Virus record (IMG/VR): IMGVR_UViG_3300031334_000002
Location: 1 to 64,000 of that record
DNA length: 64,000 nt
Direction: 5' to 3' (one strand)
Source: a virus
Positions 21,861 to 48,115 of the stretch are shown here, one piece after another (the stretch's first letter is position 1; every line of letters starts with the position of its first letter). The position numbers were made by a program, and so were the translations under genes. The notes beneath the pieces were generated by a model, which was not told the origin of the DNA, did not search any database, and saw only the letters and a program-made list of their open reading frames with translations.

Positions 21861-21880
21861 TCCTATATCTAGTTGTTATT
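21861..21880 (-). promoter_or_regulatory. T7-like late promoter P1
   Basis: Minus strand reads AATAACAACTAGATATAGGA, ending 17 bases upstream of the ATG at 21843. It carries the TAACAACTAG core plus ATAGGA, matching T7 promoter spacing with GG as the probable start site. Confidence 0.75.
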
Positions 21881-21885
21881 TCAAC

Positions 21886-22299
21886 CTAGTATATGACTTC
21901 ACATAACAGTTGAAAGCGGTTAGAAGCAGGTAAACCTGTAATTTTATTGACTTTATATAGTGAATTGCCCGTAGGTTCAAACGAAATGAAAGGTGAAGCA
22001 TTAGGGAATACCGCCCTATTCGTAAGATTTTGAGCACTTAAAACAACAATACCTCTAATAGTATTTCCGGTTTCAGTTCTGAAAGTTATTGGATTTATTG
22101 AGTTTCCAGATCCATCTAATGTCACGTCTATCGTTATTAACTCTCTATTTATGTTGTCGTAGTCCAACCTACCATTAACAGTATCAACGGTCTGTGTCAT
22201 AAAGTAATTAAATATTTCAGCAAACTTAGCTACTAACTCACGATCCTCTTCTTCAAAATCTTCTATCCTAAGTCTTTGCACATTTGATAGTCTAGTCAT
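21886..22299 (-). CDS. virion-associated protein, 137 aa
   Basis: Helical N terminus (RIEDFEEEDRELVAKFAEI) followed by a beta-rich domain (NRELITIDVTLDGSGNS...RFQLLCEVIY). Placed between the nozzle-like and internal protein genes, and starting inside the stop of the nozzle-like gene. Similar small proteins accompany podovirus tails; the exact role is unknown. Confidence 0.6.
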   Translation of the reverse strand: MTRLSNVQRLRIEDFEEEDRELVAKFAEIFNYFMTQTVDTVNGRLDYDNINRELITIDVTLDGSGNSINPITFRTETGNTIRGIVVLSAQNLTNRAVFPNASPFISFEPTGNSLYKVNKITGLPASNRFQLLCEVIY

Positions 22300-25200
22300 T
22301 ATTTATATGCCCTGTTACTAATCTGTCTAACCATTAAAGAAATTCCGTTTATCCTGACTATTTCCCTAGCATTAAGATGGTTAATTTGGACTGTCAAATA
22401 TCGACACCTTTGCTTTTCAAGAGGTATTAAAGTTCTAAAAGGAACATCGTTACCTAAGCCTCCCCAAGTACCTGTACCCCAAAAAGGTGTACCCCATTCA
22501 CCAATTCCCAGTCCACTAAAATTAGTAGAGACGAAGGACGCAGATTGATCACTGGCGTAAGCTATAGACCCACCATAGAAAGCACTTTGGTCGAATAAGA
22601 TTGTTCCTTGTCTTATTTGTTTTAGCAGTGTTGGGTCTCCAAAGTGTTCTGGGGCATATTGAACTTTTACTGGTATCCCTTTGAATATTGTTATAGAACC
22701 TTCCACGAATGGCGTATCGAAAAGTCCAGTAAGTAAGTTGCCTTGAGTTGTCACGCTATCAACGACTACTTCATAAGAAACAAGAAGTGATACTTCTGAG
22801 TAATCTTTAAAAGAAGTACCTGAACTGACAATATTCAATTCTTGCATTAGGTCGTTGTATTGATCTTTTTGTGTTTCGATGTCATTACTGTATACAACAG
22901 GCGTAACCGATATACCATCAGTAATTAATTTATCATTAATATCACCCAACGCATTACTAATCCTAGTACCTGCAGCGTATTGAATAGTCTGTTCGTAATT
23001 CGAACTAGATACTCCGTTATCGATATCTAATTTTTGTAAGAGCCTTCTAATCACAGATAAGGTAACGTATTGATTTTGAAAAACTACATCACCTTTTTCT
23101 ACTTCAGAAACTGTACTTACGCTTAATACATTAGAAGAAACTCCTGAAGGTAATAATGTTAAATTAAAATCTCTGTCAGAATAGTCTGTTCTGTTGTTGT
23201 TTTTACGTTCCTGAGTTAGTGTATTTCTATCACCTGCTCCTATTATTAATTTATCATTTCTACTAGTTACCATACCACAAGTAGCGTCTATAATGAATCT
23301 AGTCCAAGTTCTAGTAAAAGAGTTAAACCTATAGCATTGTGTTGCCGTCGTATCCTCTTCATTCGTTGGTAACCACAAAAGATAACTTCTATCTGAACTG
23401 TATGATACACCAAATGCTACAGTAGAAAAGTTAAACCTACTATTAACTACATTTTTTATTAAGTTCTCTATAGGTCTTGATATTACCTGTACTCCAGTGT
23501 CTGAAATCCTAACAACACCTTCATCAGTAAGAGCATAGATAACATTATTTAACACAACAGCACTGTCAGGAGCTTTTAGCTCCGTAGACCCATCCAATAA
23601 CCTCACAGTGAAATTGGGAGCAGAGGTTCCAGATATGATATATATGCCGTCTTCCTTTAATGCGAATAAGTTATCTCTTAGAGGTAGTATTCTGAGTATC
23701 GGTTTGTCTTTAGGACCGATATCAATAAAATTAACTATAGGGACAGCCTCTGGTCTATTGCTTTTTGAGAAGTATATCCTATTGGGTTTTTCTTCATTAT
23801 CAGAAAAGTTACTTCCTAAAAATACCTCTCCTTCATTGAGGGTGTCTGTTGTTGTTTCAAAAGGTATAGTAAAATTATTATTATTTATCTTAGTGATCAA
23901 AAACGATCCTCTAATTATAGGACTTGAAGCTAAGTTTTCAACAAAAACAGTTTGACCTGTTGCATATCCATGACTGACGGATTCAATGTTAGTAGCTGTT
24001 CCTAATGTGGTTGATGTTATAGTCTTTTCTAAATTTAAACTAGGGTCGAAACTAGGTTGTGTGTTTAGGTCTGATGTCGCTATGTAAAATGTATCATCTA
24101 CTAATGTTTTAGCTTCTAGCAAGATTATCCCCGGAACGTCGTTTGCTGAGGAAAGATAATAAGCATTAACTGGGGATAGACTATCTGCGTTAATAACTTT
24201 AACTATACTTCTAGCAGTTTCATCTATACTTGCGGCAACTGATATTTGATTAGAAAGAAGAAATTCTTGCAAGCCAGTGTCTTCTCCATCCCCTTCTGTA
24301 GAAGGAGCAGAAAATACAAACCCTGTACTTTCTGAAACGGAATCCCTAGCGTTTTCAGTTACGATACCATTCTTAGACCATGTTATAGTCATAACTGAAC
24401 CTAAAACTGAAATTTCAAAATCACCGGTAGTAGCAAGTGCTGTTGCTATTTTTACTGCAATATCATCAGTAGAATCTCCACTATTATAACGGACCCTAAC
24501 TGCTATTTTATTATCGAATTCAGAATCAGTAGGTAGTGGGTCATTACCATCTTCGTCGAAATAAACAAAATACTTCCTCTGGTTTCTAGCTGAGTCGATT
24601 AACCAACCTTTACCGCCTATTGTATTAGAGTTTACTTCTATATCTTGAACTTGAGTTTCACCTATCGCTGTGTATTTTCTTTTAACTTGGTCGTTAGCTA
24701 TGATAAAATCAGAAACTCCAGATGTAAAAGAAAGAACAGAAACTAAGTTAAAAGTTAACTTATGAGTTGTTTTAGTATTTGAAAAAAACGTAGAACCATT
24801 AAAAAGTGCTATATCTTTTGCTACTGGAGGTCTAGAGTTCGCTTGAGTTATGCCTTCTCCAGATATAGGATTCGTGTATAAAAAAGCTGCTGAAGCTCTA
24901 AAATCCTCGGGTGTTATATCTTCAATTGTTACTTCGGTTAAGAGATCTCCGTTCGAATCTAGCGGATTTCCTTCGAATACTAAATTCATTTCGTCCCCCG
25001 GATCAATATCATCAAGGGTTAATCCGTCAGGGACTGTTACTGAAGTAGTTCTGTATATTTGATAGAAATAGGTATTGTCTATTCCAGAAGGAACACTAAA
25101 ATTAACAGTTGTATTTGCAGAAGTTCCCTCTGTTACTGATCCTTGTTCTAAAACTGTAGTAGTAAAATTAGTAGCCGGTCCTCCTGATGTTTCGTAGTCA

Positions 25201-26099
25201 GCAACGTCGTCTACGTTTTCTGCTTCTACTACCGAAACTTGAACTGCATTAGAACTAATCGATACTTCAAACTCAAATAAATTAGATATAGCGTCAGCTG
25301 TTTTAGATGCTGTAGTCAAGTTTGTTTGACCGGGACTTGATAAATTTATTTCAATACCAGTTTTTCCTAAGGTTTCTGCTGTCTGAGGTTCTTCATCCGT
25401 ACCCGATAACTGATACCAAATAAAATAATCATTTACGCTTGACGAAAAAGTAAAATACTCTGCGGTTGTAGGAACGGATGTGAATGTTATCTGAAAAGTC
25501 TCTGAAACCTCCACCGAGTTGCTTGTGTTAGTTAATACGAAACGTTCTGAAGGGTGTCCCAAGAGTAAATTACTATTGTTATCTTTTTTTCCCCACAAAA
25601 CTCTATATGCGGTTTTACTTTGAGGAGGAAGAAATCCGCTTTGATTAAACAATAAAGACGCCTCCAAAGATACTGCCCTAGGTACACCTGCTTCTTCTAT
25701 CGAATCAACAGTCACTTGGGAAGAGTTAACTGCTGATATCTTTTTAATGCCACTATTTTCTGTAAAGTAAAAATTACCGTTTGCTTCTAATGATTTTATT
25801 CTAAGACCAGCTTTTAGTTCTTGATATGAACCAATAAAATCAGTAAAAACTCCAGAACCGTTATCATATTGTAGTTGATCGTTAAAGTGTCTAATAATTA
25901 AATCTTTATACTCACTAACTTGTTTCACTCGATCATCAATGTTAGGAAGATCATCACCAAACTCAGCTTGACCTCTTCTAATTTCGATAACATCATCTTC
26001 GTCTATTATGATATTATTAGCAATATCCATGGCTCCATCAGGAACTGTCGTTTCATTTTTGTACGTGTACAGTCCTTTTGCGTTAAGTGTAAATGGCAT
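22299..26099 (-). CDS. tail tubular protein B-like (nozzle) protein, 1266 aa
   Basis: Very large strand-rich protein. Opening MPFTLNAKGLYTYKNE and NIIIDEDDVIEIRRG, and later PILRILPLRDNLFALKEDGI and NVIYALTDEGVVRIS, look like the beta-propeller of podovirus nozzle proteins (T7 gp12). Long Thr/Ser-rich inserted domains in residues 180-700 explain the size, well above T7 gp12 (794 residues). Directly follows the adaptor-like gene with a TAATG overlap, as gp12 follows gp11. Confidence 0.75.
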   Translation of the reverse strand: MPFTLNAKGLYTYKNETTVPDGAMDIANNIIIDEDDVIEIRRGQAEFGDDLPNIDDRVKQVSEYKDLIIRHFNDQLQYDNGSGVFTDFIGSYQELKAGLRIKSLEANGNFYFTENSGIKKISAVNSSQVTVDSIEEAGVPRAVSLEASLLFNQSGFLPPQSKTAYRVLWGKKDNNSNLLLGHPSERFVLTNTSNSVEVSETFQITFTSVPTTAEYFTFSSSVNDYFIWYQLSGTDEEPQTAETLGKTGIEINLSSPGQTNLTTASKTADAISNLFEFEVSISSNAVQVSVVEAENVDDVADYETSGGPATNFTTTVLEQGSVTEGTSANTTVNFSVPSGIDNTYFYQIYRTTSVTVPDGLTLDDIDPGDEMNLVFEGNPLDSNGDLLTEVTIEDITPEDFRASAAFLYTNPISGEGITQANSRPPVAKDIALFNGSTFFSNTKTTHKLTFNLVSVLSFTSGVSDFIIANDQVKRKYTAIGETQVQDIEVNSNTIGGKGWLIDSARNQRKYFVYFDEDGNDPLPTDSEFDNKIAVRVRYNSGDSTDDIAVKIATALATTGDFEISVLGSVMTITWSKNGIVTENARDSVSESTGFVFSAPSTEGDGEDTGLQEFLLSNQISVAASIDETARSIVKVINADSLSPVNAYYLSSANDVPGIILLEAKTLVDDTFYIATSDLNTQPSFDPSLNLEKTITSTTLGTATNIESVSHGYATGQTVFVENLASSPIIRGSFLITKINNNNFTIPFETTTDTLNEGEVFLGSNFSDNEEKPNRIYFSKSNRPEAVPIVNFIDIGPKDKPILRILPLRDNLFALKEDGIYIISGTSAPNFTVRLLDGSTELKAPDSAVVLNNVIYALTDEGVVRISDTGVQVISRPIENLIKNVVNSRFNFSTVAFGVSYSSDRSYLLWLPTNEEDTTATQCYRFNSFTRTWTRFIIDATCGMVTSRNDKLIIGAGDRNTLTQERKNNNRTDYSDRDFNLTLLPSGVSSNVLSVSTVSEVEKGDVVFQNQYVTLSVIRRLLQKLDIDNGVSSSNYEQTIQYAAGTRISNALGDINDKLITDGISVTPVVYSNDIETQKDQYNDLMQELNIVSSGTSFKDYSEVSLLVSYEVVVDSVTTQGNLLTGLFDTPFVEGSITIFKGIPVKVQYAPEHFGDPTLLKQIRQGTILFDQSAFYGGSIAYASDQSASFVSTNFSGLGIGEWGTPFWGTGTWGGLGNDVPFRTLIPLEKQRCRYLTVQINHLNAREIVRINGISLMVRQISNRAYK

Positions 26100-27061: not shown

Positions 27062-27076
27062 TTTTTTATACCTTTA

Positions 27077-27313
27077 TTATTTAGATTTTTTCTTAGATTC
27101 CATTGCAGCCTTGATGAGGTCTTTCATGTCTCCAGACTTAATACTTTTTACTGTGTCTTCGGCAGCTTCTAGTCCTTCTTCTAGTCCTTCGGCATCATCG
27201 GCTACCACTTTTACTGCCATTTTGCCTTTCAATTCTTCTGGCATCTCGCTTCTTTTCATTTCTGATTTCAAGGATTTAATAGCTTCTCTTCTAGCTTTAT
27301 TGTTATTTTTCAT
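27077..27313 (-). CDS. hypothetical small protein, 78 aa
   Basis: Lys/Glu/Ala-rich helical protein (EAIKSLKSEMKRSEMPEELK). It opens a transcription unit, with a late promoter at 27320-27339 that would give a leader of about 10 bases (GGAGAATCA). Could be a virion or assembly helper before the adaptor. Confidence 0.6.
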   Translation of the reverse strand: MKNNNKARREAIKSLKSEMKRSEMPEELKGKMAVKVVADDAEGLEEGLEAAEDTVKSIKSGDMKDLIKAAMESKKKSK

Positions 27314-27812
27314 TGATTCTCCTATTTCTAGTTGTTATTAAACTTTCTATATCGTGCGGTTTTACTAAATCAGCGTCTAGGTCGTAATCTCCTAAGTGTT
27401 TAAAAACATGAAGATATAATAATTCGGAACAATTTCTTCCTGTTTTCCAAGGGTTTTTAACCTTAACCCCAAAAACATTAAGTATATCTACCAACACTAT
27501 TCCTACATTTTGCATAACGCCATAAGGAGCACCTGCTTCCTCGTGGCATTCATTTCTAATTGTTAAGTACAATTCATCAGAAACCTCTATTATATATTCT
27601 TTAACTATGTTGTGTTTTTTAATAAACTGCAACTCAGACATATAGTTTACCATTCCGTCTGAAGCTTGATAAAAAGTATCATACTTAAATATAGGACTGT
27701 CCATTCTAAGGGCAACGTGTGAATACTCTTTATTAGTCCAAAGTCTTATAAGCCAAGAACCTATAGCAAATTTCTTTTTGGACTTTGTAAATACTATGTT
27801 TAATTGTCTCAT
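27303..27812 (-). CDS. permuted NlpC/P60-like protein
   Basis: 169 residues. Pattern of the circularly permuted papain-like fold: early His in EYSHVALRM (about residue 33) and late nucleophile-type Cys in TGRNCSELLYLHVF (about residue 133), with a DTFYQAS strand between. Family members cleave amide bonds in peptidoglycan or lipids. In this tail-gene setting it could aid cell-wall penetration or serve as endolysin. Substrate unknown. Confidence 0.65.
   Translation of the reverse strand: MRQLNIVFTKSKKKFAIGSWLIRLWTNKEYSHVALRMDSPIFKYDTFYQASDGMVNYMSELQFIKKHNIVKEYIIEVSDELYLTIRNECHEEAGAPYGVMQNVGIVLVDILNVFGVKVKNPWKTGRNCSELLYLHVFKHLGDYDLDADLVKPHDIESLITTRNRRINEK
27320..27339 (-). promoter_or_regulatory. 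T7-like late promoter P2
   Basis: Minus strand AATAACAACTAGAAATAGGA, followed by GAATCA and the ATG at 27313. The probable start base lies in the GGAG that also serves as ribosome site. It lies inside the 3' end of the NlpC/P60-like gene. Confidence 0.75.
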
Positions 27813-30718: not shown

Positions 30719-30719
30719 T

Positions 30720-31037: not shown

Positions 31038-31056
31038 AAACACTCCGAGTTAAATT

Positions 31057-31095: not shown

Positions 31096-31851
31096 TTATG
31101 CAAGTTCTAAAATACGAATATCCGCAGTACCAGAAGCTGAAATTGCATGAAAGTCTAGTCCCGAACCGACTTTCAGTGTAATCGAACCTCTTGCTGGAAC
31201 TCTAATTCCGTTAGAGATCGTAACACTGGCGTTTCCAAGAAAAACGGCTCTATTATCTAGGTTTTGAATCGTTATCTCTTTCCTTTCGGTTAAAGCTGAC
31301 GATACTAACTGAGTTGCAACATTTGTAACACTTATTGCAGAAGTAGCAAACCCCGTTGCTGCTCTATCAACCACTTTAAGGTCTGTATTTGTTGACACTC
31401 CTGCTAAAGTGGTGCCGTCGCCAATTCTTAGTGAATCAAAGTTAGCCCCAGTGTGTTCAAGTTGAACGTTAAGGTCGCCAGCAGTAATTTGAATATCACC
31501 AGTAGCTGATGTTAGTTTCACAGGCAGAGGTTGGTTGTTTGCAGGTGTTATGCTGTCTTCGATAACTTCAACAACAGCGCCATCTAGTCTAAACTTAACC
31601 GGACTGTCCAGTGTAGCATTAACGTTAATAGAACCGTCAGCTTGGACATCTAATTCATCACCATCAGAATCAACTATAGAAATACCACCAGTAGATCCTG
31701 CTAAATTAACATCGAGCGCTTGTACTGCTCCTGTTGTGTTTGTGTGCGTCAGTAATGTTCCGTCCGAAGAACGAAGATAAGCACCAACAGAATCACTATC
31801 TGCAATTTCTGTTGGATCGAAAATTAATTGGTCTTTTCCAATTACACTCAT
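31096..31851 (-). CDS. virion protein, 251 aa
   Basis: Beta-rich with Asp/Gly loops (GGISIVDSDGDELDVQADGS), N-terminal block FDPTEIADSDSVGAYLRSSD and C-terminal small beta domain (GNASVTISNGIRVPARGSIT). Resembles phage head-decoration or fibre knob modules. GGGAGG ribosome site. It ends at a terminator. Confidence 0.6.
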   Translation of the reverse strand: MSVIGKDQLIFDPTEIADSDSVGAYLRSSDGTLLTHTNTTGAVQALDVNLAGSTGGISIVDSDGDELDVQADGSINVNATLDSPVKFRLDGAVVEVIEDSITPANNQPLPVKLTSATGDIQITAGDLNVQLEHTGANFDSLRIGDGTTLAGVSTNTDLKVVDRAATGFATSAISVTNVATQLVSSALTERKEITIQNLDNRAVFLGNASVTISNGIRVPARGSITLKVGSGLDFHAISASGTADIRILELA

Positions 31852-31866: not shown

Positions 31867-32808
31867 TTATGTCCAGTAAACCAATTCTACAGTTTTACCG
31901 GGTTTATTTGTTTCAAAGAATATCGTAACGCTAGTTGTTAAAAGGTTATCTTCTGTATATATAATCGCCCTCTTTAATTCAAGAAAACTCCCTGCTGCGT
32001 CATATTTTATTTTTAGTTTTGTATCGTTCTCTCTTACTTTTATAGTAAATTTTTTGGTATTATCAGGTAGTGCTATTGATTGTTCAGTATTAGCCAATAG
32101 CACCGTCAGGTTTACGATTGTTGGAGTTCTCGAACTTGATTCTAAAGTCACTTCAATAGGACTTGTATCTATAACCTCAAAGGTTTTTTCATAAGGATTA
32201 TAAACATACTTAATGTCGTTTTGTTGAGGGAAATCGTAAGTCTTTACTAAACTTGAGATACCATCCTGTATTGTATCGAAATTAAACCCCGTATCAAAAT
32301 CTGAAATACTAGATTGACCTATTACTTCATTTTCTATTTGTATTTTATTACCAAGTAACATTTTAACATTAAACTCTGGTATGTTATTTAAAACGAGTTG
32401 ACTTGCTAAGGCTGTAATTCCTGCAGGATCATTGAAAGCCACTGGCACTTCTATTCCTGTTCTACCGGGTATTTCAGGATCTACTCCTGTCCCTCCTACA
32501 TTATACCAAACATAAAATTGTTTTTCGTTCTGTCCCGAGTTAATAAGAAATGTTTTATTATTTAAACTTCCAGCAACATCAGCTAAAGTAGTTAAGTTAT
32601 ATATTCCTCTTTTTTCATCATAGTAAAAATCAGCACTTTCTACTGAGTCATTACCGTCGTAAGCTAAAACAACATGACTCCAATAAGATCCTACGATATT
32701 GTCAGTATCGATGACACGTAAAGCGTCCGCTTCTTGAGAGTGAACATTCTTTAAGACCCCTCCGGGGTCTAAGTTACTAGCATACTTCCTTGTTGGTCTA
32801 CCTACCAC
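31867..32808 (-). CDS. virion protein, 313 aa
   Basis: Start set at the GTG after AGAGGTATATA (overlapping the previous stop); a longer frame to 32847 is open but overlaps the neighbour. Mostly beta (EVTLESSSRTPTIVNLTVLL). Residues 60-190 include a FYVWYN / IEVPVAFNDPAG block also seen in the nozzle-like protein (YFVYFDEDG / IAVRVRYNSG), suggesting a shared inserted domain. Tail or fibre-associated. Confidence 0.55.
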   Translation of the reverse strand: MVGRPTRKYASNLDPGGVLKNVHSQEADALRVIDTDNIVGSYWSHVVLAYDGNDSVESADFYYDEKRGIYNLTTLADVAGSLNNKTFLINSGQNEKQFYVWYNVGGTGVDPEIPGRTGIEVPVAFNDPAGITALASQLVLNNIPEFNVKMLLGNKIQIENEVIGQSSISDFDTGFNFDTIQDGISSLVKTYDFPQQNDIKYVYNPYEKTFEVIDTSPIEVTLESSSRTPTIVNLTVLLANTEQSIALPDNTKKFTIKVRENDTKLKIKYDAAGSFLELKRAIIYTEDNLLTTSVTIFFETNKPGKTVELVYWT

Positions 32809-33484
32809 TATATACCTCTTTTGCCGAAAGCTGAATAGGATGATCAACTAAAGGGAAATATATTGAGAAAACATCACTCCAGTTTCCGTGAGTTCTTTTT
32901 ATTAGAAAATCACAGACTAATCCTGCGAAACGCATACTTAAAAAATTACGCTTTAACATCTCGACTTTAACCCATGTTAAAAGTTTTCCAGAGGTATGAG
33001 GTCTAGATTTCATGCAAGCAATAATACAAGCTACTCCCAATAAAGGCAAGAGGAGTCCACCTATAATAGGACAGTTTACTGCTACGTACAAAACCCAGTC
33101 TCTCGGGTGTATCAATCTTACTTCTTTATCTTTAACGTTATTATAAAAAAACAACTTTTGATTCTTTATTTCAGCCATGATCTCTTTATGAAAAACCCAG
33201 TCTTCCCTGTAACTAATTAACATTATGGCAATCAATTGATCAGGAGACATATAAGTGTCTCTTTTGTGAGCAACTCCAAATTCAACGTGTGAGGGGTTTT
33301 GCATGAACAACCCTTGTCCTACCCTGCATTTTTCTATAGAACGCTTTAAAATAGCAATTCTGGCTCTCTGATCGTTACCTTTTCTCTCCTCTAAGAGTAT
33401 ATGTTGTAGAGTCCAGAGTAGTCCATTCTCAGCTCCACTTTCATCTGGTTTTGAATTTGTTAGTCCGTATTTATCTATAAACAT
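32798..33484 (-). CDS. hypothetical protein, 228 aa
   Basis: Not structural-looking: mixed helical protein with a hydrophobic stretch (CPIIGGLLLPLLGVACIIACM, residues 138-158) and a Trp-rich body. A MSPDQLIAIMLIS block suggests a helical enzyme or chaperone. Encoded in the fibre cluster, so it may modify or chaperone a fibre, or be a virion membrane-interacting protein. Confidence 0.55.
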   Translation of the reverse strand: MFIDKYGLTNSKPDESGAENGLLWTLQHILLEERKGNDQRARIAILKRSIEKCRVGQGLFMQNPSHVEFGVAHKRDTYMSPDQLIAIMLISYREDWVFHKEIMAEIKNQKLFFYNNVKDKEVRLIHPRDWVLYVAVNCPIIGGLLLPLLGVACIIACMKSRPHTSGKLLTWVKVEMLKRNFLSMRFAGLVCDFLIKRTHGNWSDVFSIYFPLVDHPIQLSAKEVYSGR

Positions 33485-39821: not shown

Positions 39822-39832
39822 TTATTTCTCCG

Positions 39833-40303: not shown

Positions 40304-40320
40304 AGTGGACCTTTTAATAT

Positions 40321-40340
40321 TCTCTAATACTAGTTGTTAA
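40321..40340 (-). promoter_or_regulatory. T7-like late promoter P3
   Basis: Minus strand TTAACAACTAGTATTAGAGA, 18 bases before the ATG at 40303, immediately after the capsid terminator. The start region is AGAGA rather than AGGA. Confidence 0.75.
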
Positions 40341-40348
40341 ATAATACG

Positions 40349-40377
40349 AAAAGAGGGGAACAGAACGCTCCCCTCTT
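40349..40377 (-). terminator. Rho-independent terminator after the major capsid gene
   Basis: Minus strand AAGAGGGG, 11-base loop, CCCCTCTT, then TTCG. It ends the capsid transcript just before promoter P3, the classic arrangement around a highly expressed capsid gene. Confidence 0.8.
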
Positions 40378-40402
40378 GAACTTGAATACAGGACGTATTC
40401 TA

Positions 40403-41650
40403 TTATGATTTAATGAATGTGAGTAGTACTGTTTTACCGGGACAACAGGTAAATAACGCTTGATCTGTGTACATTCTCATTTCGTAACCGTTAAAACCTT
40501 CCATTAACTTAAGGAATTGACCGCCTAGACCCGGACGCTCATAAGTAACATCGGAAGAACCGATTCTCATGAAGTCTTTCTCACAGATCATGTAAGCATA
40601 TCCTTCTTTACAGTAAATAGTAGAGCTGATGCGGATAGTACCGTTTTGAGCAGTAAACTCAAGTTCTTTTGAACCGTTTTTTAGTTTAGAATCAGAGTAT
40701 GAACTATCAAACTGTCTTTTAGCAACTTGCTCAGTAAGAAGGTTAGACCATGATTTAGGGTTACAAAGTAGAAGAACTTCTTCATCTGCAAGACCTTTTT
40801 CCATTGCTCTTGAGATACCAGATTCAACTTTAGCGAAAGAAAGAACAGCTTCGTTACCAGCAAAATCAGTACCAACTTCTACAACGTTACCTTTCCAGAG
40901 ATTGTATGCAGAAGCATCAATGTTGAAAAGTACACCAGTATTAGTGATGATTTTGTGAATACCAGCAAATTCGTTGTCTTTTGCACCTTTGTAAAAGATT
41001 ACGTCAGTAGCAGCAACTGAAAGAGTTGTTAGATCTGTCCCAACTGTAACGGTTTTAGCGTCAAAGTCGTAAGAAACAACAGCAACTTCACCTCTAAGAG
41101 CACCAGCAGCACTATAAATTTGAATTGGCATATTTTCAGTACCAGACCAAATTCCTGCAGCCCATTCGTGATCTTCGATTTTTATTACATCATCACCAGC
41201 ACCTTGTACTGCTTCGACTACACCAAGACCAACTTGACCGTACATAAGTTGTACTTCGAGTCTGCGAACGAATGATTTAAGCATATTTTCAACAATAAAC
41301 TTAGTTTCTTGTACAAAAGCGCCTTTACTGTTGCTTGAACGAGAAGCGGCACCAACAGAAAGAAAAGATCTAAGGACCATTTCGTGACCTTTAATCTGGG
41401 CTCTTTTGTGAGTAGAAGCAACCGCTTGGTTAAGAGCAAAAGCTGTACCATCTTGTCCACCATAAGTGAAACCGTGCTCAAGACCTAAAGAAACAGGTTG
41501 AACGTAGTCAAGACCGTTTTGTTTCTCAGCTCCGATAAAAGCAATTGAGTTATAAAGTTTAACGCCTTCAGGAATGAGATCTACGATCTTATCAGCATAG
41601 ATATCCTTAAAGTGTGCGTTAAGTGTTTGAAAATCGTTATTTTGTGGCAT
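40403..41650 (-). CDS. major capsid protein
   Basis: 415 residues. HK97-fold style: N-terminal helix region (TLNAHFKDIYADKIVDLIPEG), long spine-helix-like block, FAGIHKIITNTGVLFNIDA and EEVLLLCNPKSWSNLL in the A-domain, and an RISSTIYCKEGYAYMI strand near the end. Own promoter (41771) with a 120-base leader, strong AGGAGATTAATA ribosome site, own terminator and adjacent scaffold gene all support the call. Confidence 0.88.
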   Translation of the reverse strand: MPQNNDFQTLNAHFKDIYADKIVDLIPEGVKLYNSIAFIGAEKQNGLDYVQPVSLGLEHGFTYGGQDGTAFALNQAVASTHKRAQIKGHEMVLRSFLSVGAASRSSNSKGAFVQETKFIVENMLKSFVRRLEVQLMYGQVGLGVVEAVQGAGDDVIKIEDHEWAAGIWSGTENMPIQIYSAAGALRGEVAVVSYDFDAKTVTVGTDLTTLSVAATDVIFYKGAKDNEFAGIHKIITNTGVLFNIDASAYNLWKGNVVEVGTDFAGNEAVLSFAKVESGISRAMEKGLADEEVLLLCNPKSWSNLLTEQVAKRQFDSSYSDSKLKNGSKELEFTAQNGTIRISSTIYCKEGYAYMICEKDFMRIGSSDVTYERPGLGGQFLKLMEGFNGYEMRMYTDQALFTCCPGKTVLLTFIKS

Positions 41651-41770: not shown

Positions 41771-41790
41771 CTCTAATGCTAGTTGTTAAA
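41771..41790 (-). promoter_or_regulatory. T7-like late promoter P4 (major capsid)
   Basis: Minus strand TTTAACAACTAGCATTAGAG, placed exactly after the scaffold stop codon (41791-41793). It drives the major capsid gene. Confidence 0.78.
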
Positions 41791-42795
41791 TTATCGTCCT
41801 AAGTTCCTGAAAAAGTCAGAAGATCTAAGTTTTTCTTTTGAAGAATCTTCTGTTTTCGATACCTTAGCCGTTTCTTTTATTGTTTGCTTTGGGTTATTCT
41901 TTATAGAATCTACTCGACTTTTACGAAGTCTTTCGATATTCTTTTTACCAATAACTTCCTCCATCATAGTTTCTGGTGCGTTGTCTAGGAAACTTCTCAT
42001 CTCTGCTCTAATTTCTTTTTCTACTTCAGGTATAATATCTGCAACAGTGATTCCGCTTGCATCATATCCATTCTCTTCAGCATAATCCATAGCATGTAAC
42101 AGTGCATCTGCAATCCTAGCCATAGTTTTTTGTGTCGGAGGTAAAGTACTGTTATCTTTTAATTCAGTAATGATTTCTTCTTCTAATTGCGCTCCAGCTT
42201 CTGCTATTTTTTCTTGTTCTTCTTTGTCTTGTTGAGTTTTCTCAATTTCTTGAAGACGTTTGCGTGCTTGAGATAGTTCGATTTCCATCTTTTCTTTCTC
42301 TAGTTGATCTGGGGTTTTTTTCATTTCTTCAATTCGATCTTCGATGAATCTTTCATTAAGATCTTCTGGATCTAGACCTAGCTCTTTTAATACTTCCCAA
42401 GGATTAGATTGTAGTCGGGCAATTTCATTTTCATACGTTTTTTTTAATTTTGCAGCTTCTTGGGCTGTGTGATTAAAAGCTGCTGATTTTTGAAGTTCTT
42501 GTCGGACGGCATCTTCATCCGAAAGATCAATCTCTCTTTCAATTGTTTTACCATTAACTTTTAATTGGAACTTACGTACCATTGATTTAACTTCTTCTTC
42601 CGAAGCACCATCTTCAATAGCCTCTGCCACTTCTTCTTGAAACTCTTCGGTAGTTTCTGCTTCAACTTCGGGTGAATCAACGATATCAGGTGAATCAACG
42701 ATATTAGGTGAATCGTCAACAATTTCTAGATCTGTTGTTTCTTCTAAAACTTCCGTTACTTCTTCTGGTGCTGAATCTACTGCTTCATTCGACAT
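41791..42795 (-). CDS. capsid scaffold protein
   Basis: 334 residues, very acidic N-terminal 100 residues (TEVLEETTDLEIVDD, repeated SPDIVDSP), then a central coiled coil (KEKMEIELSQARKRLQEI) and basic C terminus. Position between portal and major capsid, acidity and coiled coil fit scaffold proteins. ATAGGAG ribosome site. Confidence 0.8.
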   Translation of the reverse strand: MSNEAVDSAPEEVTEVLEETTDLEIVDDSPNIVDSPDIVDSPEVEAETTEEFQEEVAEAIEDGASEEEVKSMVRKFQLKVNGKTIEREIDLSDEDAVRQELQKSAAFNHTAQEAAKLKKTYENEIARLQSNPWEVLKELGLDPEDLNERFIEDRIEEMKKTPDQLEKEKMEIELSQARKRLQEIEKTQQDKEEQEKIAEAGAQLEEEIITELKDNSTLPPTQKTMARIADALLHAMDYAEENGYDASGITVADIIPEVEKEIRAEMRSFLDNAPETMMEEVIGKKNIERLRKSRVDSIKNNPKQTIKETAKVSKTEDSSKEKLRSSDFFRNLGR

Positions 42796-42832
42796 AATCT
42801 TCTCCTATGTTACAATTTATATATGTAAACAT

Positions 42833-42857
42833 GTCTCAGCCGTTATTGGTATGAGAC
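42833..42857 (-). other. inverted repeat before the scaffold gene
   Basis: GTCTCA and TGAGAC separated by 13 bases, at the end of the 42857-43126 gene and upstream of the scaffold ATG. No T-run follows, so it may be an RNA-processing or stability hairpin rather than a terminator. Confidence 0.4.
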
Positions 42858-43126
42858 TAAAATGCTGTGTTGTCGTCTTCGAATTTTCTTTGTTCTCTTA
42901 ATTTTTTTAGTTTTTTTAATATCCTCTCTTCTTTTTTTGTGTCACCATCTTCTGATGCTTGGATTGAGTCTTTCGCTAATTTCTTCATAACAGACGTCAT
43001 TGTTTTATCTCTTAGTTTTTCCAAAGCTTTTTTCCGAGCTGTATTGGGACTTTTTAATGATTCAGAACCATCTACTTCAACAACATCACTATCTAAATAC
43101 GTCTTTACTCTCTTTTTATCTTTCAT
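42857..43126 (-). CDS. small charged virion-block protein, 89 aa
   Basis: Lys/Asp-rich helical protein (KKALEKLRDKTMTSVMKK, EERILKKLKKLREQR). Directly between portal and scaffold genes, overlapping the portal stop. Possible minor head or assembly protein. Confidence 0.6.
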   Translation of the reverse strand: MKDKKRVKTYLDSDVVEVDGSESLKSPNTARKKALEKLRDKTMTSVMKKLAKDSIQASEDGDTKKEERILKKLKKLREQRKFEDDNTAF

Positions 43127-45192
43127 TAACCTACCTTTGGTGGTTGTGCAACTCTAGGCATCCCTGAGGTATTAGATGCTTGTTGGGACTCTGCTCCGGG
43201 GTTTCCCATTGCAGGAGAGGGTGCTTGATTAGGTTGAGGTGCTGCTGCATTATTAGGATTGACAGGACTACCTCCAACTGGAGCTAGAGGTTGTTCTCCT
43301 ATTATACTAAGAAGATCTGGGTTAACTTGTCTCAACGCATCAACGTGCTCTTGGATATGAGCTAGTGCTCTTGTAACTAATTCGATGTCTAGTCGAGCAT
43401 CGGGGTCAGCAAGTACAATTTTATGCTCTCTAATGTGTAAAGCATGATCGTCGGTATCAATTGCAATAACATCACTACTATCATCAACCAGTCTTTCGTT
43501 TTCTGCTTTTATTAATAACAGTTCGTCGTGTTGACCTTGGATCAAAGGTTCTAGTTTACCAGTATTAAGCACTGCGAAATATTCTTCTGGACTTTTTATT
43601 AGTCCCATTTGTAAAAGATTAGAAGCCATCTCTGCTCTACCGGCTGTCGTCTGGGAAAGAGGATTACCGGCATCAACCACAACTCTAGTGATACTATTAA
43701 CATCATCTCCGACAAATTCTTTCATCTTACTTCGATTAGATTTTCCTGCAATTTCGGCTATCCTAGGGACTTTTGCAAAATCCTGAATTAGCTTAATTAA
43801 GCCTGTACCGAGGTCTTCAATCAATTGGATATAAGATTGAGACAGACCTGAAAGAAACTGTAATGCTTGAGATTGAACTAATGCTAGTGCATTACCCGAC
43901 CTCAGTGAAGCTTCAGGATTACCCCTTGCAACAGAGTTAACACCAGAAACCGTTTCCATTGCTCTCTCTATCATTTGTAGGAAGTTAAAGATTTCTCCGG
44001 GGGTCTGAGTTAAGTTTAATGAAGTAGGTGCACCTCCGTTTGGAGCCCCATCTACTGTGTTGTATTCGATAAAATTCATACCTTCTGCAACCTGAGAAAC
44101 TTTAACGTCATTACCTCTTGGACTTAAAATACTTTGAACTCCGTGCGCATTTTGGTTAGTGAGAATTGTAGAATATAATGTATTTACTGCATCCTGCATT
44201 GGAAGTAAATCAAACATTGAAGTATACCCATAAGGTGTACCTAATATGTCCGAAGGAGATATCCTATATATAGGCAGGTTTCTATAAGGCATGGGAGTAT
44301 CCATAAGCGCGATATTAGTATCAACATAAAGAAGATACCTGCCCTCAGGAATGGACTCTGTTTTTTTATGAAAAAACTCATACACAGGAACTTCAACGGT
44401 ATCATCGATATACGACAACGTTGCGCGTATCCCACTTTGTTCTTGGTTTTTAGACTTTAGAGACATTATTTCTTCAGCTTTTTCTGGATATTTTGCCGCA
44501 ATGTCGAATTTATTCTTAAACGTTCTAGTAAGAACCCAATCGTGGTTTTCTGCGCTTTCTTTTGTATTATCAAAAATAACATCATAAGGTGATAGGTTTT
44601 CAAACTCAACATCACCTTGATATACTGGGAATGGTTTTAGAATACGACCATTCTCGTCAAGAGGGTTATCGTCTTCATCATAGTCAACTATTAGTTCTTC
44701 ATCAAAGTCTATTGTATCGTATACTTCACCGCTAGTTGAGTTCCATTCCATTTTTATAAAACCCGAACCAAGAACGATAGCATACTCAACCGCTTTTTTA
44801 ATAAACCTTTCTAGTCGTTTTTCTCTCATATAGTATTCTAGGATGCCATGAGCGAGGTATGTTTGAACTTGAGATTTATGGTCGATATTAGATGATCGTG
44901 CTTGGAAAGCTGGTCGAGTTGATGTCACCATAACTAACATATGTTGAGCTATATTTCTAAAGTGATTAACCGCAATATTTACATACTCACCTTGCTCTCC
45001 TCCGAAAGTTATTTGATGTCCATCTCCACCATTATCAGTAAAATAGGCTCCATGATACGACATCCAGCTTCTTTTAATTTTTTCAAGGTATCTATTATGA
45101 TATAGGTGATTAAACCAATTAGAACCTTTCTTTGATAAATATTCGACGGTTTTCTCTACTTTGTCTGCAGCAAAATATATTTCTGAACTCAT
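43126..45192 (-). CDS. portal protein
   Basis: 688 residues. Portal traits: EYYMREKRLERFIKKAVEYA, GSGFIKMEWNS, the DPVN-type block SPYDVIFDNTKES, then PYGYTSMFDLLPMQDAVNTL and a long helix with GVNSVARGNPEASLRSG before the crown region, and a Pro/Asn/Gln-rich C-terminal tail. Length suits podovirus portals with a barrel. Gene order terminase, portal, scaffold, capsid supports it. The leader is about 10 bases after late promoter P5. Confidence 0.9.
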   Translation of the reverse strand: MSSEIYFAADKVEKTVEYLSKKGSNWFNHLYHNRYLEKIKRSWMSYHGAYFTDNGGDGHQITFGGEQGEYVNIAVNHFRNIAQHMLVMVTSTRPAFQARSSNIDHKSQVQTYLAHGILEYYMREKRLERFIKKAVEYAIVLGSGFIKMEWNSTSGEVYDTIDFDEELIVDYDEDDNPLDENGRILKPFPVYQGDVEFENLSPYDVIFDNTKESAENHDWVLTRTFKNKFDIAAKYPEKAEEIMSLKSKNQEQSGIRATLSYIDDTVEVPVYEFFHKKTESIPEGRYLLYVDTNIALMDTPMPYRNLPIYRISPSDILGTPYGYTSMFDLLPMQDAVNTLYSTILTNQNAHGVQSILSPRGNDVKVSQVAEGMNFIEYNTVDGAPNGGAPTSLNLTQTPGEIFNFLQMIERAMETVSGVNSVARGNPEASLRSGNALALVQSQALQFLSGLSQSYIQLIEDLGTGLIKLIQDFAKVPRIAEIAGKSNRSKMKEFVGDDVNSITRVVVDAGNPLSQTTAGRAEMASNLLQMGLIKSPEEYFAVLNTGKLEPLIQGQHDELLLIKAENERLVDDSSDVIAIDTDDHALHIREHKIVLADPDARLDIELVTRALAHIQEHVDALRQVNPDLLSIIGEQPLAPVGGSPVNPNNAAAPQPNQAPSPAMGNPGAESQQASNTSGMPRVAQPPKVG

Positions 45193-45198
45193 ATTATC

Positions 45199-45218
45199 TC
45201 CTGTTTCTAGTTGTTACT
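45199..45218 (-). promoter_or_regulatory. T7-like late promoter P5 (portal)
   Basis: Minus strand AGTAACAACTAGAAACAGGA, followed by GATAAT and ATG at 45192. It overlaps the terminase stop (45214-45216). The GGAG at the predicted start doubles as ribosome site. Confidence 0.75.
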
Positions 45219-46695
45219 TTTTCCGATTCATCACTGAGTTCATAAAAGTTTGTTGACTAGTTTGTTTATTTCCTAAGTGTGATTGGTAAACATTACTTCC
45301 TGATAATTCGAAATACCCTTCTGGATAGGGATTTTTTTCAGGTTGCAAATTTCTAACGAGATACACGAGCGCATCAAGTAAATCTGAGTGATTAGCTTTA
45401 ATATTCTTATTTTTATTTCCTTTATTTCTAGCAAATTCTTTTCTATTAGGTTTCCATTTAGCATTGCGAATATGTTCTATTAAATTAACACATCGGGGAT
45501 GGATCTCTATCTCACCACGTTTAAACATCATCCTAACCATGTTCACTTTATCTTCTTTTCCGTCTTTTTTTGTAGCTTTAAATCTGATATCATGGTTAGC
45601 AAGAAGGTCGTTTATGAGAAGTGGTAAGTTATTATCAATAATTCTCATGTAAGGTTTTTTTACTTCGCCAGTATACGGGTTTGTGTATACTGAGGATTCT
45701 TTTCTAACTATACAATTAGCTATATCGTCAGTGGTTAATGCTCTTTGTCCTTCTCCACCAAGAACACCTTCATCTACTATTACTAGTTTTTTTCTAAGGT
45801 AATCAAAATAACCAAAAACTATTCCAGTTAAATCGACAACTGCCGGATCGCACGACACGTACCCATCGTAGTAAACTGGAATTTCTACCTCTTTGAGTAT
45901 ATCTTTTTCAAGATCGGACCACTCAGGAATAACCATTAAAGAACTATATGTATTACTCTTAAGAAGGTATTCTCTTTGGTATTCTGGATCTTCCTCTCCT
46001 AGAGGGTATCTGGCTATAATTTTTTCTCTAACTTTATCATTAATTAACGGATTCGAGTATATATCGTACTCAACAAGCCAACCTTTGGATCTATAAACAT
46101 CAACAAAGTTAGTTAAAAAAGGATGATCAGGTTCTTTAGAGGGAGTTGATGCTATTATCATTTTACCATTAGTAGTTGTCATGGTAGGTAATAGAATAGA
46201 GTTAACTATGTACATCATGTCGTTATAAGGAAAAAACCCACCTTCGTCACATAATATTAAATGTATAGTCTTTCCTCTTGCCGCTTCTGCATGTCCACCA
46301 TCAGCACCAGCCATCATAATAATAGAACCGTTGGGGTATACAAATTCTTTATCTGCGATTTTATGTTCAGGTTTAAGGTATTCAGGACAATCTTTATGTA
46401 TTGTTCTCATTTGTTCTTTAGCGACTGCTGCTGCCATGTTTTTTTTAGGAAACATTAATAGAACTTTTGTGTTCGGGTTTTTTTGACAATACTCTGCAGC
46501 AATTAAACACATGGTATAACTTTTTCCTGTTTGTCTCGAACATAAGAAAACGGTAATGTCGTGAGGCGAGTCGTACACTTTATCGCGCATTTCTTTTTGT
46601 ATTCCTTTTAGCTTATACGACAAATCTCCAATTTCCCAGAGTTTCGCTATTGCTTGTTCTTTAGATAATGTCTTTTTTCCACGTTTGGTTGTCAT
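45214..46695 (-). CDS. terL: terminase large subunit
   Basis: DNA-packaging ATPase and headful/end-cutting nuclease. 493 residues. Walker A CSRQTGKSY (52-60), Walker B LILCDE (147-151 region), coupling STPSKEPDHPF, RNase H-like nuclease with Asp 283 (SCDPAVVD) and a second acidic cluster (MRIIDNN) and a C-terminal HSDLLDALVYLVRN, as in terminases of T4/podovirus type. Overlaps promoter P5. Confidence 0.93.
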   Translation of the reverse strand: MTTKRGKKTLSKEQAIAKLWEIGDLSYKLKGIQKEMRDKVYDSPHDITVFLCSRQTGKSYTMCLIAAEYCQKNPNTKVLLMFPKKNMAAAVAKEQMRTIHKDCPEYLKPEHKIADKEFVYPNGSIIMMAGADGGHAEAARGKTIHLILCDEGGFFPYNDMMYIVNSILLPTMTTTNGKMIIASTPSKEPDHPFLTNFVDVYRSKGWLVEYDIYSNPLINDKVREKIIARYPLGEEDPEYQREYLLKSNTYSSLMVIPEWSDLEKDILKEVEIPVYYDGYVSCDPAVVDLTGIVFGYFDYLRKKLVIVDEGVLGGEGQRALTTDDIANCIVRKESSVYTNPYTGEVKKPYMRIIDNNLPLLINDLLANHDIRFKATKKDGKEDKVNMVRMMFKRGEIEIHPRCVNLIEHIRNAKWKPNRKEFARNKGNKNKNIKANHSDLLDALVYLVRNLQPEKNPYPEGYFELSGSNVYQSHLGNKQTSQQTFMNSVMNRKK

Positions 46696-46730
46696 TTGTT
46701 CCGTCGAATTTATTAGATTTACTGTTATTT

Positions 46731-47078
46731 TTAACTTTTTGCTATTTTGATCAGATCTTTAACTTGGGCTTTAGTTTTGGTTTTAGCTTTCTTTTTAGGT
46801 TGACCTCCCCTAATAAGGTTCAAGTCTTTCACTAGAGTGTCGAATATTTTAGCTTGTTCTTGGTCGAAAGCCATTCCTTCAGATTGTTCCTTTAATCTAC
46901 CTATCTGAGAGATACATATATATTCCTCATCTGACATTTCAGGTATATCATCTATGTCTAGGTCATTATCTCTTATAATCTGTTCATACTTGTAGATTTC
47001 TTTTTCTAATTCGGAAATTTTTTTTCTTAAAGCTTCATTCTCAAATCCACTTTCCATTCCTAGTATATCATCTGACAT
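46731..47078 (-). CDS. possible small terminase / packaging protein, 115 aa
   Basis: Sits immediately upstream of terL in the transcript, the usual spot for terS. Coiled-coil N-terminal half (LRKKISELEKEIYKYEQII) then helical part (ISQIGRLKEQSEGMAFDQEQ) and basic Lys-rich tail. Lacks an obvious helix-turn-helix. ATTAGGAGAAAG ribosome site. Confidence 0.5.
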   Translation of the reverse strand: MSDDILGMESGFENEALRKKISELEKEIYKYEQIIRDNDLDIDDIPEMSDEEYICISQIGRLKEQSEGMAFDQEQAKIFDTLVKDLNLIRGGQPKKKAKTKTKAQVKDLIKIAKS

Positions 47079-47346
47079 TCTTTCTCCTAATCTCTCTAGT
47101 AAGTTTCACGCCAAGTCCCATTGCTTGGATGACTCGACGAACTCTTTCTTTTAGGTATCTAATGTCTTTGGTTTGAGATACCCCTCTCCTAACTATGTTT
47201 CCATTACCCATATTAACGATCTCGAATTTCATACCTTCAGGGTAGAGTCTAATGGTATAACGTGCTCCGGTTACTTGTGATAATATAACCCCAGATACGA
47301 GTCTTTCATTTTTCTGGTCTTTAAAGTATCTTATTCTAGTTTTCAT
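47068..47346 (-). CDS. hypothetical basic protein, 92 aa
   Basis: Basic, beta-rich first half (RLVSGVILSQVTGARYTIRL) and Arg-rich helix at the end (LKERVRRVIQAMG...REIRRKNVR). RNA- or DNA-binding-like composition. Overlaps the next gene by 11 bases. AGAGGACTTA before the ATG. Confidence 0.6.
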   Translation of the reverse strand: MKTRIRYFKDQKNERLVSGVILSQVTGARYTIRLYPEGMKFEIVNMGNGNIVRRGVSQTKDIRYLKERVRRVIQAMGLGVKLTREIRRKNVR

Positions 47347-47410
47347 TAAGTCCTCTTGTCAAAAACATTTATTTACTTCCTGTAAATTGTTTTTGCCTAC
47401 GGCATCCTGC

Positions 47411-47761
47411 CTAAAAGCGCATTCCACCTTTAGTTTCGATAGTTTTACTAATTTCACGTTTTGTGTATTCTTGATCTGTTAAGAACTTCTTAAGTTTTAA
47501 GGCTGCAATGTCATTTTCTTTTTTTAAGGCAGCGATTTCGGAATCTTCCAAAATAGGCTTTTTAAGGTCAAGCTCTTTATCAAGGATACGAAATTTTCTT
47601 AAGTCCTTACGGTGTAGATGTGACAACACCTTAGGGACTACCATCAAAAGAGATAGGACACCTAAAACGAGAGCTTCTTGGAATGTAATTGGATGTAATA
47701 CTGATTTAGAACAAATAAATAATAAATAGGCTACAAATAAGCCTAACGGAAGGTGTTTCAT
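47411..47761 (-). CDS. holin-like membrane protein, 116 aa
   Basis: Start at MKHLPLG with CAGGAGTGAAAAA before it; twelve codons are open above. Two membrane helices (PLGLFVAYLLFICSKSVL and EALVLGVLSLLMVVPKVL, residues 5-22 and 30-47) and a long charged cytoplasmic tail with coiled coil. Class II holin topology fits, but the long tail is unusual, and it is early in the late operon. Confidence 0.55.
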   Translation of the reverse strand: MKHLPLGLFVAYLLFICSKSVLHPITFQEALVLGVLSLLMVVPKVLSHLHRKDLRKFRILDKELDLKKPILEDSEIAALKKENDIAALKLKKFLTDQEYTKREISKTIETKGGMRF

Positions 47762-47808
47762 TTTTTCACTCCTGAAGTAAGTCCAGTAAACCAGCAATTA
47801 AGTATTGT

Positions 47809-48045
47809 TTACTTTTTCTTTTTAAGTAGTTTTTTTAATTTATCATATTTGACACCACCACATGCGTAAGTGTCATTATCTTCTCTTTCTTTTCTTTTTT
47901 TGTTGGCAGCATCAATGGCTTTTGCCCGAGCTATGTCAGTTGGGTCCATTCCTTCGTAATTTCTTTCATAAGGATCTTTCTCGCCAGTTTCTTTTCTTCT
48001 TCTTTTTTTAGAGAGCAATTTAGCTCCCATAGCTTTCCAATCCAT
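47809..48045 (-). CDS. basic hypothetical protein, 78 aa
   Basis: First gene of the leftward virion operon. Extremely Lys/Arg-rich (LSKKRRRKETGEKD, YDKLKKLLKKKK), with a DPTDIARAKAIDAANKK helix. Probably binds nucleic acid or scaffold. GGGAGAGTCAAC before the ATG and late promoter P6 upstream. Confidence 0.65.
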   Translation of the reverse strand: MDWKAMGAKLLSKKRRRKETGEKDPYERNYEGMDPTDIARAKAIDAANKKRKEREDNDTYACGGVKYDKLKKLLKKKK

Positions 48046-48095
48046 ATGTTGACTCTCCCAAGTATATATGCTATTCTTATTTTGACGTATTAATA

Positions 48096-48115
48096 ACCTA
48101 TATCTAGTTGTTAAA
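48096..48115 (-). promoter_or_regulatory. T7-like late promoter P6 (start of virion operon)
   Basis: Minus strand TTTAACAACTAGATATAGGT, 50 bases before the ATG at 48045. It opens the whole leftward block, at the divergent junction with the rightward genes. Confidence 0.78.

Follow-up and report, generated by a model that had tools for sequence, protein, structure and literature searches.

The seven sites and their surroundings

Which RNA polymerase reads the late genes of an uncultured phage of about 80 kb? The question arises from a window of 64,000 nucleotides, positions 1 to 64,000 of the 80,105-base IMG/VR record IMGVR_UViG_3300031334_000002 (here G000), in which a short element recurs in the late block. 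A preliminary description of the window had listed six copies as T7-like late promoters on the minus strand. In our analysis TAACAACTAG was found seven times in the whole record (0 forward, 7 reverse) and nowhere else. Within the window, the exact matches to AACAACTAG lie at 21869, 27328, 31931, 40330, 41779, 45207 and 48104, all on the minus strand, and all seven equal TAACAACTAG. The six copies listed before were all recovered, and the one at 31931 had been missed. Furthermore, the ATAGG ascribed to the copies holds only in part: at offset 12, five of the seven sites have an exact TAG, with CAG at 45207 and TAC at 31931.

The TAG box lies 5–7 nt from AACAACTA, and the first A of AACAACTA is separated from the next start codon by 23, 23, 34, 35, 67, 88 and 137 nt. 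Several copies overlap Shine-Dalgarno sequences; at the portal gene, AGGAG at 45198–45202 overlaps the edge of the site and can serve as the Shine-Dalgarno sequence. Behind the capsid gene, the 90 nt upstream of the site folded with −24.0 kcal/mol. In shuffled windows AACAACTAG had a mean of 1.17 matches, and seven were reached in 1 of 100 shuffles. On its own, the word count is hence only modestly beyond chance, and the case for the sites rests on the comparison with relatives.

Table 1. Predicted features of the window, with matrix scores of the sites and their counterparts by position in the related record G011
Feature	Position	Strand	Score (bits)	G011 counterpart	Remarks
Candidate late-transcription factor, family A4	12643..13353	+			In 7/7 compared genomes or long fragments; also in G025P
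Putative late promoter before gene 19543-21843	21862..21878	-	25.1	13753
Putative late promoter before gene 27077-27313	27321..27337	-	22.9	19478
Seventh copy, weak, without TAG, in 3' end of ORF 31867-32847	31924..31940	-	15.9	24719	Counterpart within homologous gene
Putative late promoter 3' of major capsid gene	40323..40339	-	24.1	32920	Directly behind terminator-like hairpin
Terminator-like hairpin between capsid gene and promoter	40349..40377	-			GC-rich stem, then T run
Major capsid protein	40403..41650	-			phrog_14242 2.3e-13
Putative late promoter between gene 41791-42795 (scaffold position) and major capsid gene	41772..41788	-	22.4	34736
Portal protein	43126..45192	-			phrog_156 5.9e-28
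Putative late promoter before portal gene	45200..45216	-	18.5	39030
Terminase large subunit	45214..46695	-			phrog_2 3.9e-31
Putative late promoter P1 (TAACAACTAGATATAGG), first in late block	48097..48113	-	26.2	41290
Early block	53001..57650	+			sigma70-like promoter words at 53001, 53448, 54156, 55177, 56655, 57608
Candidate DNA-binding regulator, PHB_acc_N domain	60748..60972	+			Pfam PF07879 6.9e-17; in 5/7 genomes or fragments

Conservation in related phages

Among 43 related loci, of which L002 represents the phage's own species and L013 and L022 are nearly identical to each other, TAACAACTA-N4-TAG has 43 late-strand copies in 18 loci and a single copy on the other strand. In the same loci the controls were empty, both for gaps changed by −2 and +2 and for two permuted cores; shifted-gap forms do occur singly in whole records (1 in G000, 1 and 1 in G013, 1 in G019 and 1 in G020). 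Each of the seven sites has a counterpart in G011 at the corresponding place in the late block, and three of these counterparts hold the full TAACAACTA-N4-TAG. Within 190 nt past the capsid stop, the motif is present in some form in 22 of 42 loci; for AACAACTA proper the figure is 13 of 43, including one case (L076) that does not resemble a promoter. The bare 8-mer AACAACTA is found 100 times on the late strand of the 43 loci and 21 times on the other, a bias that we do not take as proof because control words were biased too (AACTACAA 60/23, AACAATCA 30/10, ACAACATA 21/10, AACAACTC 26/14, ATCAACAA 51/48).

The core differs between sister phages, where it reads AACAACTA, AACAACTT with TACACA upstream, AACAAGTA in the phage that encodes an ECF sigma, or CACCCTTATAT. 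The motif of the phage's own clade is compact and has no upstream box, an arrangement that a T7-type enzyme would also give. In G020, TACACA stands 16 nt before AACAACTTA, exact at six of ten sites, with 5/6 letters at two and 4/6 at two, and G009 has a conserved upstream block. Single-element and bipartite versions are both present among the related lineages. Among the literature matches listed, the letters of AACAACTA stood in one record, on a duck herpesvirus gene and unrelated by its title; the motif may nevertheless have been published.

For a genome-wide scan, which the preliminary description had proposed, a matrix was built from 49 relatives' sites, hand-picked between genes or at gene ends (loci L011-L017, L019, L020, L023, L051, L057, L065, L069 and G013) and containing none from the phage itself. 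Left out were in-gene copies, the sites of L018/G009, L021 and L022 (which duplicate L012 and L013), L064, and individual sites in L013, L014, L017, L023 and G013. In the closed 79,868-base genome the seven sites rank 1–7 with 26.2 to 15.9 bits, followed by 14.4 bits at 52160 minus; the training sites were picked for holding AACAACTA, so that the core is fixed by construction. In 60 simulated genomes, 0.025 sites per strand scored at or above the sixth site, and the maximum on one strand was 23.1.

A conserved element at late-unit starts, on the late strand, is thus found in the genome and in its relatives. From conservation, strand, position and the terminator-like hairpin that immediately precedes the site 3' of the capsid gene, the seven sites are very probably late promoters of the phage, as the preliminary description had proposed for the starts of the virion units.

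Search for a polymerase and for specificity factors

The same description had placed a T7-type polymerase outside the window. We read the remaining 16 kb, and a separate contig closed the phage genome to a circle of 79,868 bases; as far as sequence searches tell, the complete genome holds no single-subunit polymerase gene. The PF00940 profile had no match up to E=10 in G000, G009 and G013 (T7 control, 9.9e-110), and the T7 polymerase protein had none in five phage records while T7 itself was detected. Scanned in six frames, G000 has no word for motif C. Motif B words free of stops number three; their open frames span only 121, 23 and 25 aa, and the 121-aa frame lies opposite rIIA. In 12 further related records no single-subunit polymerase appeared at E<=1, in a search whose own controls stayed blank. 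Family, protein and motif searches together give no support for a T7-type polymerase in the phage, although a very divergent enzyme might escape them. The agreement with the T7 promoter at about 12 of 19 positions was reproduced against promoter phi1.1B of the T7 record at two sites; the other five agree at 9–11, and 103 of the 159,698 19-mers of the genome reach 12/19.

Sigma factors were searched for in G000 with PF04542, PF08281, PF04545 and phrog_1740, with no match at E<=10; a phiEco32 control was detected by PF04542 and phrog_1740, not by the two region-4 models. Comparison by hhalign of 653 proteins from seven records found only the sigma of G025P, and the best probability in G000 was 3.2 %. 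Pfam, PHROG, in-house bacterial and phage sigma profiles and hhalign yielded nothing convincing as a divergent sigma in the phage, where such a protein may have diverged beyond recognition. A single T4 gp55 sequence had no hhalign match in 653 proteins, a weak test that had no gp55 positive control. Small region-4-like helix-turn-helix proteins (73–78 aa) occur in G014/G022/G023, with one in G016; no G000 frame was among the matches listed in this search, down to E=7.3.

G025P encodes an ECF sigma of 159 aa (PF04542, 4.8e-5), recognized with 97.2 % by hhalign against sigma factors without itself. The record has nine TTAACAAGTA sites, all on the late strand and eight of them in the late block, six of these with TAG. 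Its form TAACAAGTA-N4-TAG is one core base away and lies mostly at the same boundaries. No relative of this sigma was confirmed in viral contigs. The sigma was seen in one of the eight records read at length and may be unrelated to these promoters.

Two further proteins are listed in Table 1. The structure model of the A4 protein is poor (mean pLDDT 63.7, pTM 0.27), and the family bears no resemblance to sigma factors. The PHB_acc_N protein gave a good model (pLDDT 85.3), which had no match in the PDB at E<=0.001.

Discussion

We favor, with a probability of roughly 0.57, that the host multisubunit RNA polymerase, redirected by a phage sigma-like specificity factor, reads the seven late promoters. 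Early genes on the other strand would probably start from ordinary sigma70-like promoters. Such words number 12 on the early strand of G000, including one that falls within the late block, plus 4 on the late strand, which exceeds the 3–12 in total of the shuffles only a little; they are no more frequent than in shuffles in G013, G019, G020 and G016. Once the phage-encoded sigma-like factor is made, the core enzyme would be moved to TTAACAACTA-N2-TATAGR, with AACAACTA serving as a −10-type element and transcription starting about 5–8 nt downstream of it, at or next to TAG. An intrinsic terminator would separate the units, at least behind the capsid gene. The promoter role of the sites, their start point, the register and the reading by a sigma-like protein are all what we infer.

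Such a late-promoter system would be akin to those of phiEco32 and Salmonella phage 7-11. According to two reports (PMC8948821, PMC4281155), the phiEco32 sigma gp36 uses the single element tAATGTAtA and the 7-11 sigma gp47 the bipartite GTAAtg-(16)-aCTA, with late starts 6–9 nt from the element. Like our phage, phiEco32 (Kuravirus) has a genome of similar size (77,554), the order terminase, portal, small gene, scaffold, capsid (here from 46695 to 40403, with a 334-aa gene at the scaffold place) and a single short element at its late units, from which its start lies 6–8 nt downstream (PMC8948821). However, the phiEco32 element is a different one, and no gp36 homologue was found here. BLAST at 1e-3 of phiEco32 1-49000 against G000, G009, G011 and G013 matched only HNH-type genes and thymidylate synthase. 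Phage 7-11, although related to a phage with a single element, has the bipartite form, a difference also present between the lineages here, and its aCTA resembles the ACTA end of AACAACTA (PMC8948821); its upstream box is another one, and the own clade here is without any. The late promoters of AR9, AACA-(6N)-TA/G (PMC5312081), are read by a phiKZ-type multisubunit nvRNAP and likewise place an AACA element few nt before a T(A/G) start, although the spacing here is 8 nt. In coarse tests without control, the six frames of G000 contained a single DxDGD word, at 31671 in a frame of the late strand, and no polymerase name was found among the family matches of its large proteins. The best named-phage match is Proteobacteria phage MWH-Nonnen-W8red 1 (CP017838, Silvanigrella), with 28 % for the capsid (its only match) and 27 % for the terminase; this phage differs in that it has just 3 scattered AACAACTA words, with none where its capsid and terminase genes start in the part examined.

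Host sigma70 holoenzyme with a phage activator appears unlikely to us as the reader of the sites. TAGRNN would then be the −10 hexamer, AACAACTA (−24 to −17) an activator site in the spacer, and the start would lie about 10 nt further downstream. At L065 11309, L069 2775 and L014 7903, TTGACT and TAGAAT/TAGGAA are indeed separated by exactly 17 nt and have AACAACTA between them, an overlap that allows another register, and a conserved small DNA-binding protein (PHB_acc_N) exists. However, only three such sites were seen, hexamer position 17 is not conserved in the matrix, and a start at the portal ATG would make the transcript leaderless despite the AGGAG in the motif. In L048 the capsid gene is followed by an ordinary sigma70-like promoter and then a GIY-YIG endonuclease gene, so that sigma70-like promoters may belong to inserted genes; this explanation is not established for L065 and L069, since the genes behind their sites match no Pfam family.

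We regard reading by a T7-type single-subunit phage polymerase as improbable; the sites would then be ~20-bp promoters whose +1 is the first G of TAGG. The compact motif of the own clade, the rigid start box TATAG and the two sites with 12/19 agreement are in its favor, and with the portal Shine-Dalgarno sequence at the box, transcription would have to begin no later than the G. Against it stand the polymerase searches in the closed genome and the 12 further records, the extra upstream box in the sister lineages G020 and G009, and the 103 genomic 19-mers that reach 12/19. A host alternative sigma whose use is only timed by the phage would fit with the lack of a recognized sigma gene; the change of core between sister phages, however, suggests co-evolution with a phage protein, and G025P carries its own ECF sigma, which leaves this reading with little probability. 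Least of all do we expect a conserved RNA or DNA element at late gene boundaries, a processing or binding site other than a promoter: the overlap with Shine-Dalgarno sequences would suit it, but one copy lies directly behind a terminator-like hairpin, others are 67–137 nt from start codons, and G020 has a second box at fixed spacing.

Returning to a redirected host polymerase, we may tentatively speculate that, in this uncultured ~80-kb phage lineage, an initiation factor without recognizable relative, e.g., A4, turns the enzyme to AACAACTA-type promoters, that the site has split into at least four lineage forms, and that one member relies on an ECF sigma instead. Judged by sequence comparison, many related uncultured phages retain the putative late signal, altered in ways specific to each lineage, and a TATAG box is not by itself enough for a T7-type promoter. 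The four core forms represent a natural series in which apparently a single promoter has diverged while staying at the same boundaries between genes, so that it can be tested how phage promoters and their specificity factors co-evolve, and the sites point to a missing transcription factor in this group of uncultured phages.

Genome organization

The window covers positions 1-64,000 of a virus record of 80,105 bases, the ends of which overlap imperfectly: positions 1-84 equal 79869-79952, and 347-508 match 79944-80105 at 98.8 %. Since G002, another contig from this phage, spans the junction, the genome closes as a 79,868-base circle. A 262-base stretch at one record end (85-346) is absent from the repeat at the other end and carried by G002; it is an assembly or population variant.

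The virion gene block, at about 13.3-48.1 kb of the window, is oriented leftwards and flanked on both sides by rightward replication and metabolism genes (DNA polymerase, helicase, Erf, thymidylate synthase, RNA ligases, rIIA/rIIB, NAMPT). In the NAMPT gene (record 64047-66485; L001:47-2485), the middle part, roughly residues 312-636, instead resembles PHROGs for ribonucleotide reductase, PhoH and thymidylate synthase and is probably an intein. Two related-looking NTG-repeat-rich proteins occur in this one genome (window 55589-56230, matching Pentapeptide_2, and record 69601-70287).

Virion genes of the window and counterparts of the seven motif sites in the related record G011
Feature	Position	Direction	Context
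Terminase	45214-46695	leftward (minus)	virion block
Portal	43126-45192	leftward (minus)	virion block
Major capsid	40403-41650	leftward (minus)	virion block
G011 counterpart	41290		head of late block; by position only
G011 counterpart	39030		upstream of portal
G011 counterpart	34736		between scaffold-position gene and capsid
G011 counterpart	32920		upstream of gene after capsid
G011 counterpart	24719		upstream of gene matching 31096-31851
G011 counterpart	19478		upstream of gene matching 27077-27313
G011 counterpart	13753		upstream of gene matching 19543-21843

A conserved, probable late promoter motif

TAACAACTAG occurs seven times in the 80,105-base record, always on the minus strand. All six copies of the preliminary description were recovered, and one at 31931 was added. 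This overlooked seventh copy (window 31924-31940, minus) is weak and lacks the TAG box downstream of the core; it has a counterpart in the homologous G011 gene. The next start codon follows within 90 nt at six of the seven sites and after 137 nt at the remaining one. By word count alone, seven copies were reached in 1 of 100 shuffles, a modest excess; judged from the sequences compared, it is the related phages rather than the word count that decide on the reality of the motif.

Capsid searches yielded 18 loci, then 43 from viral contigs and 4 from genome contigs, with capsid identities of 33-100 %. The motif scan took in 43 loci, with our own species as L002 only and L050, L007-L010 and L024 excluded; L013 and L022, both counted, are 99.97 % alike. 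There, TAACAACTA-N4-TAG was found 43 times on the late strand, that of the virion genes (18/43 loci), and once on the other. Gaps altered by +/-2 and two permuted cores gave no hits in these loci, and GAT for TAG gave one; in whole records, shifted gaps occur singly (one each in G000, the record of this phage, G019 and G020, one and one in G013). G011 has counterparts for all seven sites, three with the full TAACAACTA-N4-TAG, and additional AACAACTA words within genes. Many loci show a hairpin and T run past the capsid stop, as judged by eye, only that of our phage having been folded. Within 190 nt past this stop, some motif form is present in 22 of 42 loci and AACAACTA itself in 13 of 43, among them L076, where it is unlike a promoter.

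In the closed genome, the seven best scores of a matrix built from 49 sites of relatives fall on the seven sites of our phage. AACAACTA is invariant in the matrix by construction; T at -1 is found in 49/49 sites, TA at 10-11 is weak, and T12, A13, G14 and a purine at 15 occur in 46, 40, 41 and 47. The eighth-best match (14.4 bits) is TAACAACTGG at window 52160, minus, within the early block. Conserved sites at matching late-block boundaries in relatives make the late-promoter reading of the preliminary description well supported.

Variant forms occupy the same kind of places in G013, G019, G020, L075, G009, G025P and other loci. G013 and G019 carry AACAACTACTTATAGAG-type sites, G025P carries TAACAAGTA-N4-TAG, and 11 of the 43 loci together contain 22 copies of CACCCTTATAT, every one on the late strand; its permuted form occurs once on either strand. 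G020 features ten TACACA-N16-AACAACTTA sites, the TACACA box being exact in six, and L075 a similar arrangement; in G009, an upstream block precedes AACAACTAT and the TAG box is not kept.

Possible early promoters and the register of the start

Words with at most one mismatch from TTGACA-N16-18-TATAAT were counted against shuffles. G000 has 12 on the early and 4 on the late strand, where shuffled sequences gave totals of 3-12; the corresponding counts for G009 are 10 and 1 (shuffles 1-7), and those in G013, G019, G020 and G016 lie within the shuffle range. These words weakly suggest host polymerase at the early genes of G000, and the support is better in G009. A perfect TTGACA-N16-TATAAT at window 35629, plus, is directed against the late block.

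If AACAACTA acted as a -10-type element with the start at the TAG, the portal-unit transcript would begin at its AGGAG. A sigma70 register would place that start near the ATG; sites L065 11309, L069 2775 and L014 7903 fit this register. In L048 (11342-12112), a plain sigma70-like promoter lies past the capsid gene, ahead of a GIY-YIG endonuclease gene. Sigma70-like promoter words also lie past the capsid gene in L049, L065 and L069; the genes at the L065 and L069 sites matched no Pfam family.

Which polymerase may read the probable late promoters

The T7-type polymerase that had been proposed outside the window was not supported. PF00940 had no match at E<=1 in G000 and 12 related records, where the controls of the search were blank, nor at E<=10 in G000, G009 and G013 (T7 control, 9.9e-110), and the T7 polymerase protein matched only T7 itself. 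Six-frame scanning of G000 for polymerase motif patterns gave nothing for motif C; for motif B it gave three words free of stops, lying in open frames of 121, 23 and 25 aa. A very divergent single-subunit enzyme may be encoded. Two lineages, G020 and G009, have a second box about as far away as a -35 lies from a -10, an arrangement that favours a multisubunit polymerase acting with a sigma-type factor.

PF04542 had no match in 13 viral records, our own included (phiEco32 control, 6.5e-5), and matched contig 114 of a metagenome bin, the relative G025P; this contig of 82,488 bases encodes a 159-aa ECF-type sigma amid phage genes. In hhalign this protein reached 97.2 % against sigma factors without itself, and phiEco32 gp36, tested likewise, 96.3 %. 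A screen of seven records (653 proteins, 70-420 aa) showed no other sigma-like protein: this one scored 99.6 %, the profile including itself, the next 30.6 %, and the best G000 protein 3.2 %. The nine TTAACAAGTA sites of G025P are all on the late strand, eight within the late block: ahead of the first late genes, the portal and the scaffold-position gene, on the capsid side of the latter, and ahead of counterparts of the genes behind our sites 27336 and 21877; the place matching site 31939 has none.

Neither of two candidate factors resembles sigma: the small protein A4 (12643-13353), one of the non-structural families common to all seven records compared and found in G025P at 62867-63301, and a PHB_acc_N DNA-binding-domain protein (60748-60972), present in 5/7 records; of the other two, G020 has none and G011 is a fragmentary record. 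In the CACCCTTATAT lineage, L119 (553-774), L120 (465-698) and L121 (512-748) encode small proteins (73-78 aa) whose helix-turn-helix resembles that of sigma region 4; one such protein occurs in G016 too.

G025P thus has its own sigma and sites one core base from our motif, and G000 has no visible sigma. PMC8948821 puts the sigma factors of phiEco32 and 7-11 at 15 % identity, so a sigma of this phage could plausibly have diverged past recognition. With the factor itself not found in this phage, recognition by a sigma-type factor is the best available reading of its probable late promoters.
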